Assembly (NCBI GenBank): GCA_040755755.1
Contig: JBFLZW010000034.1
Location: 25,382 to 55,581, forward strand
From: a bacterium
GTDB lineage: Bacteria > SZUA-182 > DTGQ01
DNA: 30,200 nt
Reading direction: 5' to 3'
The notes under the pieces: model-generated
What the model saw: only the letters and a program-made list of their open reading frames with translations
What the model was told of the DNA's origin: nothing
Databases searched by the model: none
Shown here: positions 23,509 through 26,128 of the stretch, in pieces
Numbering within the stretch: the stretch's first letter is position 1
Layout of the letters: each line of letters begins with the position of its first letter
Position numbers and translations under genes: made by a program

Positions 23509-26128
23509 CCCGAAGAAGAAACTTCGTATCGGCGATATCCTGGTCAATCATGGGTATATTACCGAAGAAGAGCTTCAGCAGGCACTCATTCACCAGAAAG
23601 AGTCTTATCAACGTACCCCATTAGGTCAGATTTGTGTTGACCTGGGCTTTATTTCAAGCGTGGATCTGTCCAAGATCCTGCGCAAGCACTGCAAGCATAT
23701 CTACCTGGGCGAGCTGCTGGTCAACCTGGGGATTATCAATAATGAGCAGCTTGAGCAGGTGCTGAACAAGCAGAAGGGGGAAAAAAAGCGGATTGGGGAG
23801 CTTCTTCTTGAATCAGGCTTCCTGACCGAAGAGCAACTGGCCAGGTCCCTGAGCATGCAACTGGGATTTCCCTTCATTGTGCCAAGCATGCAGATCATCG
23901 ACCAAAAGCTGGCCCTGCGCTTTCACGAGGCGTTTTTGCGGCGACAGGAAGCCATACCTGCCTTTGAAAAGGAGGGGATCGTTACCCTGATTATGACAGA
24001 TCCCCTGGCCGACGATATTATCGATGATTTTAAAAGATCCCTGAACGCCGAGATCGAACCGGCTATTGCCACCCGTTCAGCCATTCACAGCCTGCTTGAT
24101 ACCTTAAGCCACAAGATCGAATACGGCCAAAAGGAAAGCGAGGAATTCCTGGCCGGAAAAGACCTCGTTATCGGCAACGAACCCTATACCAGGGATGCCA
24201 GGGATAATACCGTCAACATTGTCAATTATATTATTTCCTCGGCCATTACCGAGGGGGCCAGCGATATCCATATTGAGCCCCAGATGTACAACCTCCGGGT
24301 GCGTTTTCGCATCGACGGTGTCCTCCAGCATAAGACCGACCTGCCCAAGCGGATGATTCCTTCGGTTATATCCCGCATCAAGGTCATGTGCGGCATGGAT
24401 ATCGCCGAACATCGAAAGCATCAGGATGGCAGGATCGAGGCCCGGATACTGGACAATGATATTGACCTTCGGGTTTCAGCCTACTCGGCTGTTCACGGCG
24501 AGAATATCGTAATCCGGATACTGAAGCGGCAGACCACGCTGATCGACCTGGACAAGCTGGGATTCTCCCCTATAAACCTGAAACGATATAGACAGGTCCT
24601 CGATTCACCCACCGGTATCATTCTGGTCTGCGGCCCAACCGGCAGCGGAAAGACGACGACCCTGTACGCCTCCCTGAACTACCTGAACAGTCTGGCCAGA
24701 AAGATTATCACGGTTGAGGATCCGGTGGAGTACACCATGGAAGGAGTGGTACAGGGGCAGTTGAACACCAGGATTGGCCTGAGCTATCTTGATTTTATCG
24801 CTTCCATGATGCGTCAGGATCCGGATGTCATCATGGTAGGTGAAATCCGGGACAATGCCGCAGCCGCAGCCACTATCCAGGCAGCCCTGACCGGCCATAA
24901 GGCACTCAGCACCTTCCATACGGAAGATTCCACCGGTGCCCTGCTGCGGCTGATAGATATGGGAATTGAAACCTTTTTAATCTCGTCCACGATAGTTTCC
25001 GTGGTTGCCCAGCGCCTGGTACGCAGGGTCTGTACGCATTGCAGCGAACGCTATGAGCCGGACCCGGTCCTTTTTCAGAATCTCGGCATCAAAAATGTCG
25101 AACCTGGAAAGTACTTATTCAGCCGGGGGAGAGGATGCAACCTCTGCAATCAGACCGGTTACCGCGGAAGGATCGGTATTCATGAGCTTCTGGTGCTCAA
25201 TGACAGTATCAGGGATGCAGTCTTGAGCCGGAAAATCTCCAGCGAGATCCGCCAGATTGCCAGATACTCAGCCCGGATGATTTCCATGCGCGAAGATGGC
25301 TTTTTTAAAGCAGCTCAAGGGATAACCAACATAGAAGAAGTTCTCCGGGTGCTCTTCTACGGCGGTGATGATGCGGATTATTCACGCGATGCCGAAGAGG
25401 TCATCCGGCAGATCAACGGCGAGAATATTGGAAGCAGGAGTCAGGAGCCAGAAGTCAGGAGCCAGAAGTCAGAAGGCAGGAGTCAGGAGTCAGGAGTCAG
25501 AAGTCAGGAGTCAGAAGTCAGGAGTCAGAAGGCAGGAGTCAGGAGTCAGAAGTCAGAAGTCAGGAGCCAGGAGAGAGTGGTCAGGAAGGATGACGGGGAT
25601 GGCCTGTTGCTGAATTCAACGCCATTGCCCCTGGTGGGAGAAAACACCTTGTCCCCCCTCCCATCAGGAACGGAAAAGGGTTCTGGTATATCGGAGCATT
25701 CAGCAGGAGAGGAGTGCAGTGAAGAGCCTTCTTCCTCTCAACTGTATCAAAACGGTGAGGCGATTCAGGAGTGCAAAGTACCTGAATTCAGCGGCGAGGT
25801 CTACCGGGTCCGCTTTGAAGCTGATACAGTCAGTCTGGAACAGAACCGGATTCGTGATCTTTTCCGAAGATACCAGTCTCTGAAACAGGAATTTGGCGAG
25901 GATATCTCAGAGGATCTCCTGGCCGATTTTATTGATTTCATTGTTTACTATACTTCCCTGGCCCAAAAGAGATACGGAGCGGTCTTTGTCGAATTCATTC
26001 TTAAGGTGATCGAAGGGCGATGCCCCCGGATCTTTATTCAATTTCAGAGTTGCGAGTCAGCCCGATCAGCTTTTTCCTCTCATCTTGAGAGAGCACGCGG
26101 CCAGCGATTCATGGAATTCATGGCCTGA
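23495..26128 (+). CDS. PilB/GspE-family secretion ATPase with unusual C-terminal extension
   Basis: This is the hexameric motor ATPase of type IV pili or type II secretion. The 877-residue product has MshEN-type N-terminal repeats (KLRIGDILVNHGYITEEELQ, then IYLGELLVNLGIINNEQLEQ), which in relatives can bind c-di-GMP. An ATPase core follows with Walker A GPTGSGKTTT (380-389), Walker B QDPDVIMVGEIRD, and a four-Cys zinc site CTHC (513-516) and CNLC (548-551). Residues 647-693 are a heptapeptide array encoded by DNA heptamers. A further 180 residues, ending in a helical domain (IRDLFRRYQSLKQEFGEDIS), are not normal for the family. ATG 23495 has GAGG 6 bases upstream. No pilin or other secretion gene is in view. 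Confidence 0.92.
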   Translation: MPSDSPKKKLRIGDILVNHGYITEEELQQALIHQKESYQRTPLGQICVDLGFISSVDLSKILRKHCKHIYLGELLVNLGIINNEQLEQVLNKQKGEKKRIGELLLESGFLTEEQLARSLSMQLGFPFIVPSMQIIDQKLALRFHEAFLRRQEAIPAFEKEGIVTLIMTDPLADDIIDDFKRSLNAEIEPAIATRSAIHSLLDTLSHKIEYGQKESEEFLAGKDLVIGNEPYTRDARDNTVNIVNYIISSAITEGASDIHIEPQMYNLRVRFRIDGVLQHKTDLPKRMIPSVISRIKVMCGMDIAEHRKHQDGRIEARILDNDIDLRVSAYSAVHGENIVIRILKRQTTLIDLDKLGFSPINLKRYRQVLDSPTGIILVCGPTGSGKTTTLYASLNYLNSLARKIITVEDPVEYTMEGVVQGQLNTRIGLSYLDFIASMMRQDPDVIMVGEIRDNAAAAATIQAALTGHKALSTFHTEDSTGALLRLIDMGIETFLISSTIVSVVAQRLVRRVCTHCSERYEPDPVLFQNLGIKNVEPGKYLFSRGRGCNLCNQTGYRGRIGIHELLVLNDSIRDAVLSRKISSEIRQIARYSARMISMREDGFFKAAQGITNIEEVLRVLFYGGDDADYSRDAEEVIRQINGENIGSRSQEPEVRSQKSEGRSQESGVRSQESEVRSQKAGVRSQKSEVRSQERVVRKDDGDGLLLNSTPLPLVGENTLSPLPSGTEKGSGISEHSAGEECSEEPSSSQLYQNGEAIQECKVPEFSGEVYRVRFEADTVSLEQNRIRDLFRRYQSLKQEFGEDISEDLLADFIDFIVYYTSLAQKRYGAVFVEFILKVIEGRCPRIFIQFQSCESARSAFSSHLERARGQRFMEFMA
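25434..25573 (+). repeat. Heptanucleotide array, 20 units of NCAGRAG, inside coding sequence
   Basis: Twenty contiguous 7-base units (mostly TCAGGAG or TCAGAAG, with CCAG and GCAG variants) fill 140 bases. Because 7 is not divisible by 3, all three frames give a similar RSQESEV-type heptapeptide and no stops. It is the same heptamer family as at 366-386. Confidence 0.95.

Follow-up and report, generated by a model that had tools for sequence, protein, structure and literature searches.

A heptanucleotide array in a GspE/PilB-family ATPase gene is probably a tolerated in-frame copy of a dispersed repeat element

A 30,200 nt stretch of bacterial DNA (hereafter the window) includes a gene for a GspE/PilB-family ATPase in which a long tandem array of the heptanucleotide NCAGRAG is read as part of the protein. 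Our analysis indicates that this array is probably a tolerated in-frame copy of a heptamer element dispersed through the genome of the species, one that would be kept since it does little harm. The features that bear on this reading are collected in Table 1.

Table 1. Positions in the window of the heptamer arrays, the ATPase gene and associated features
Feature	Position	Strand	Remarks
Intergenic copy of the family	358..419	+	GAGAATTCAGGAG...CAGAAT, short loop, degenerate inverted units 407-419
GspE/PilB-family ATPase gene	23399..26128	+	909 aa as longest ORF; T2SSE, MshEN
T2SSE ATPase core, residues 272-650	24212..25348	+	Pfam; dN/dS ~0.07 vs G001
Array of 20 exact NCAGRAG units	25434..25573	+	RSQESEV-type heptapeptides, in frame
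AGAGTGGTCAG junction	25574..25584	+	elsewhere joins array to (GTCAGTG)n
Stop, frame offset by 2	25591..25593	+	
Stop, frame offset by 1	25611..25613	+	
Conserved C-terminal domain, residues 798-909	25790..26125	+	12-orthologue alignment

An initial annotation had described twenty in-frame units in a PilB/GspE-like gene. Both Tandem Repeats Finder (25435-25573, period 7, 19.9 copies) and direct reading of the units (20 exact CAGRAGN) bear out this description, with the proviso that in a draft assembly (5.26 Mb, 88 contigs) the exact unit count could be an assembly error. This is the longest exact NCAGRAG array of the genome. When 200 first-order Markov sequences of 30.2 kb were generated, the longest array comprised a single unit in 196 of them and two units in the other four, compared with the 20 units observed.

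All three forward frames through the array are open and specify nearly the same peptide, as the annotation had stated; the likeness of the peptides is automatic for a stop-free 7-base unit, since seven is not a multiple of three. The reverse strand of the array carries TGA in all three frames, and therefore only one orientation can be coding. Past the array, the frame of the gene remains open to its own stop at 26126-26128. The two other frames reach stops exactly where the annotation had located them (Table 1), and the frame and stop positions also agree with its proposal that gain or loss of one unit would remove the C-terminal ~180 residues of the protein; a length difference of one or two units is expected to cut off ~185 residues.

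The ATPase assignment rests on Pfam matches to T2SSE (E 2.5e-117) and MshEN (E 5e-10). There is a 110 nt overlap between the longest ORF and the gene upstream, and the likelier start is at 23498, which matches the start of the orthologue from a same-genus relative, G001 (MPSDSLKKKLRIGD). A response-regulator/GGDEF gene lies upstream and V-type ATPase genes lie downstream. The array starts at residue 679 of 909, three quarters of the way through the gene, in a hypervariable linker that has a conserved part on either side and is wholly different among orthologues. Specifically, the linker of G001 contains ALAGEGRQ-like repeats, that of G002 contains QPTQPTQPPQ-type repeats, and that of G003 has another sequence. 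The nearest orthologues thus carry low-complexity sequence of their own, unrelated to the heptamer, and the Desulfobacterales loci have short linkers.

The domain that follows the linker exhibits a dN/dS of ~0.22 relative to G001, which indicates purifying selection. This selection implies that the in-frame state of the array is the functional one. The domain is predicted to adopt a beta-alpha-alpha-beta-beta arrangement (model pLDDT ~80 overall and >80 in residues 1-90); it has no Pfam match, and the best PDB match in a fold search was not significant (E 0.07). With its ~90 ordered residues, this domain typifies a subgroup of the GspE/PilB family that is placed after a response-regulator/GGDEF gene.

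It had also been claimed that the heptamer occurs outside genes, at 366-386, and that a dispersed intergenic repeat seemed to have entered a coding region; a genome-wide search for further NCAGRAG arrays was suggested. The window does contain such units outside its main genes, at 365-391, where they form one arm of an imperfect hairpin with the units at 407-419. The genome-wide search returned 376 exact three-unit matches, compared with none in G001 and none in a reversed control. The two-unit pattern gave 617 matches in the genome versus 7, with almost none in G001. When nine species of the phylum were examined, the four-unit pattern had a few matches in three others (11 in G002, 7 in G005 and 11 in G007).

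We read 1.47 Mb of the genome in stretches that were picked partly for the presence of arrays, and genes were called by simple means. The first 1.14 Mb examined contains 96 arrays of at least three units, of which 81 lie outside called genes. In 54 of the same 96 arrays, inverted units start no more than 70 bp downstream, giving hairpins. This paired arrangement, present in about half of the dispersed copies, is not found at the ATPase copy. Array length across the family ranges from 3 to 20 units, and three forms recur. One is a hairpin with a short loop, for example AAAGGCTATCTTTT. Another is a composite, in which the array is followed by AGAGTGGTCAG and then by an array of a second heptamer, (GTCAGTG)n. 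The third is a MITE-like element with TATACT...AGTATA ends and heptamer arrays just inside them. The MITE-like elements are ~150-250 bp long and carry inverted arrays inside both ends, as at C17:39807, C23:12897 and C24:2246.

Among 12 copies of one MITE-like element, the left arrays contain from 3 to 14 units. This spread shows that unit number changes over time, and not in threes only. Only a subset of the family has the TATACT...AGTATA ends, and the ATPase array lacks the MITE terminal inverted repeats. A non-exhaustive search for an autonomous element that moves the repeats found none; a candidate of ~0.96 kb with like ends, at C22:161911-162871, is without a clear transposase ORF. A flank, GAAAGCCCAATTCGGGC, precedes the heptamer array at three contig ends of this genome (C6:253, C13:154 and C21:9) and a long array in G002 (G002:C241:5320), and may mark where a repeated element ends and the assembly breaks. 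We also considered a terminator role for the intergenic hairpins and rejected it, since convergent genes flank only 7 of the 50 placed elements and about a quarter of the intergenic bases.

The window holds other repetitive or modular sequences. A nine-base tandem repeat (TTTCGCGTG, 4.6 copies, 469-509) lies just downstream of the intergenic heptamer hairpin. A 279-aa ORF at 19996-20835 contains a GLYGG-type glycine/tyrosine-rich repeat (20138-20430, period 12) and has no Pfam match. A 928-aa ORF at 15655-18441 encodes bacterial Ig-like (Big_1/invasin-type) domains and adjoins an outer-membrane beta-barrel gene at 18417-19154.

The sequence that immediately follows the ATPase array ties it to the dispersed copies. 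The array ends in AGAGTGGTCAG or a close variant, and this junction is common to nine other dispersed copies in the 1.47 Mb. The 11 nt sequence itself occurs 22 times in the 1.47 Mb, whereas by our own estimate fewer than one occurrence is expected by chance. The shared junction indicates that the ATPase copy derives from the dispersed family. Together with the count of 376 matches against none in G001, it upholds the proposal that a coding region has received a copy of a dispersed, mainly intergenic repeat. The second heptamer, (GTCAGTG/GCCAGTG)n, forms a dispersed family of its own, with 39 arrays of at least three units in 1.14 Mb that are often joined to arrays of the first; its nearest copy is at C34:23426, ~2 kb upstream of the window.

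The ATPase gene is one of several with arrays in frame. The others include the genes for cysteinyl-tRNA synthetase, a PyrK-like protein, LptE and a BadF/BcrA-type activase, as well as two polyketide-synthase ORFs. In the cysteinyl-tRNA synthetase, which is the only full-length match to this enzyme in the genome, six in-frame units (C12:40394-40434) occupy a loop that precedes the DALR domain. The same loop of the G001 enzyme contains another, longer insert, which is QEP-rich and has scattered CAGGAG motifs. The two polyketide-synthase ORFs (1863 and 2882 aa, within C36:87296-107295) contain three hairpins and two single composite arrays, all in frame. The hairpins are near-identical (C36:97122-97202, 101068-101141 and 103627-103707), and each adds ~27 residues (RSQNSEVRIQNK..PDSCLLTPDSC). 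At the KR-domain hairpin, the corresponding site is uninterrupted in G001 and G002, with a net gain of 75 nt relative to G001.

The stop-free strand is the sense strand in all 12 single arrays judged to be coding, a status that rests on simple gene calls, such that N-terminal cases may include 5' leaders (clear ones were not counted). Unit numbers divisible by three are not favoured among these coding arrays (4 of 12). Stop purging in genic hairpins was not significant, with three of three open compared with 19 of 34 elsewhere.

Could the ATPase array be a phase-variation (contingency) locus? Slipped-strand mispairing would then change its length, two of every three lengths would yield an ATPase without the C-terminal domain, and a subpopulation of cells would switch the output of the machine. 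The arithmetic permits this reading: the unit length is not divisible by three, both other frames stop less than 40 nt past the array, and the MITE-like copies reveal changes in unit number that are not in threes. Heptamer tracts are also known or proposed to serve phase variation in Haemophilus influenzae, mostly in promoters and sometimes in ORFs; the 7-nt tracts of hmw1A and hmw2A change in unit number, with documented variation between strains (PMC2651432). However, the Haemophilus tracts reside mostly in promoters of surface proteins and at few loci per genome (PMC2651432), unlike NCAGRAG. The ATPase array lies late in its gene rather than at the 5' end or promoter position expected of a phase-variation tract, which typically belongs to a dispensable, surface-related gene, and purifying selection acts on the domain beyond it. 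Comparable in-frame arrays are present in genes for which an off state makes no sense, such as that for cysteinyl-tRNA synthetase, and there are ATPase orthologues with long linkers that lack the heptamer. Heterogeneity of repeat units should lower slippage, and the ATPase array combines unit variants heterogeneously, with no significant higher-order period when one was sought as a sign of recent duplication. Switching at this array is possible by the arithmetic of its sequence, but the arrays in essential genes weaken the case for it, and we judge it unlikely.

The dispersed copies bear on two further readings. In one, the array would be bound by a DNA-architectural or global regulator, a role proposed for this heptamer in Geobacter metallireducens, and would be genic by chance. 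In favour is the likeness to the class-3 multicopy sites of that species. Their consensus, MTYCTGA, reads TCAGRAK on the opposite strand, and most comprise five tandem units in a paired arrangement (PMC2700814); many intergenic copies here are paired as well. Yet the copies follow no positional rule, given that 30 of the intergenic elements are flanked by tandem, 13 by divergent and 7 by convergent gene pairs. In addition, unit number ranges from 3 to 20, G001 has almost no units, and the regulator role in Geobacter is itself only predicted, all of which makes a regulator site appear very improbable. An origin independent of the dispersed copies, with slippage expanding a heptamer that was present in the linker by chance, is likewise highly unlikely. 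Orthologue linkers do carry other short repeats that must have arisen locally, such as ALAGEGRQ in G001, but the unit variants and the 11 nt junction AGAGTGGTCAG recur at dispersed copies and the heptamer family is absent as arrays from G001, so that an unrelated origin in place is already disfavoured. The reading as a tolerated copy of the dispersed element can also be taken further. Since one strand of the unit is without stops in every frame and specifies a hydrophilic heptapeptide, copies could enter domain borders without breaking genes. The heptamer elements might thus be a mobile, frame-indifferent linker generator that enters genes at domain borders, leaves them unbroken and extends proteins at many loci, including essential enzymes, with some sites kept as length switches; we regard this broader role as rather doubtful.

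Several known repeat systems resemble the NCAGRAG family in part. The Geobacter class-3 sequences, 16 sites predicted to bind a regulator, belong to multicopy sequences that occur both between and within genes (PMC2700814). Compared with their published consensus, the unit here corresponds to TCAGRAK on the other strand, and it is similarly tandem and paired in a hairpin-like manner. In contrast to that class, the arrays here number in the hundreds, reach 20 units, include composites and MITE-like forms, and lie in frame in many genes. The TAACTGA heptamers of marine Beggiatoaceae, Cyanobacteria and Bacteroidetes are genome-wide and mostly intergenic, and mostly lie just upstream of start codons (PMC4679880). 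As with NCAGRAG, only the stop-free orientation of these repeats is tolerated within ORFs, away from their ends (PMC4679880), although the unit differs and hairpins or MITE-like forms are not their rule (PMC4679880).

Rickettsia palindromic elements, ~100-150 bp in length, lie in frame in unrelated genes that include housekeeping genes (PMC10969869). The copies described here are comparable as in-frame palindromes in unrelated genes, with arms made of tandem heptamers; their sequence is unrelated as far as is known, and the ATPase copy differs in being a single array without a palindrome, whereas other coding copies, such as the polyketide-synthase hairpins, are palindromes. The GGGNATC-type heptamers of Xanthomonas and Nostoc also form heterogeneous genome-wide arrays, of 2-26 units, whose length varies between relatives (PMC4692102). 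Unlike NCAGRAG, the GGGNATC unit forms a G-quadruplex and is under-represented on the coding strand of ORFs (PMC4692102). A literature search for the repeat sequence itself yielded unrelated papers only, and the open-access literature gave no description of heptamer arrays that are arms of palindromic or MITE-like elements and enter genes in frame, which is no proof of absence.

For the ATPase array as a tolerated copy of the dispersed element, we propose that it arrived in the gene by insertion and grew through replication slippage. Selection would keep only those copies that have no stop on the coding strand and leave the downstream frame intact, and the encoded hydrophilic peptide would serve as a longer flexible linker. 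Most of the array may have grown in place, a possibility that arises because the ATPase gene offers no clean empty site for comparison, the same linker in G001 having a different insertion. The normal product would be the full-length ATPase with its C-terminal domain, and a one-unit gain or loss would amount to a harmful mutation that occurs now and then rather than to a regulated switch.

These results point to the entry of dispersed palindromic repeats into protein genes, in frame, outside Rickettsia. They also link such in-frame insertion to a heptamer already described in Geobacter, where it stands as an unexplained regulator site. Furthermore, they call for caution: a tandem repeat of non-triplet units within an ORF is not automatically a phase-variation switch, and the rest of the genome should be checked first.
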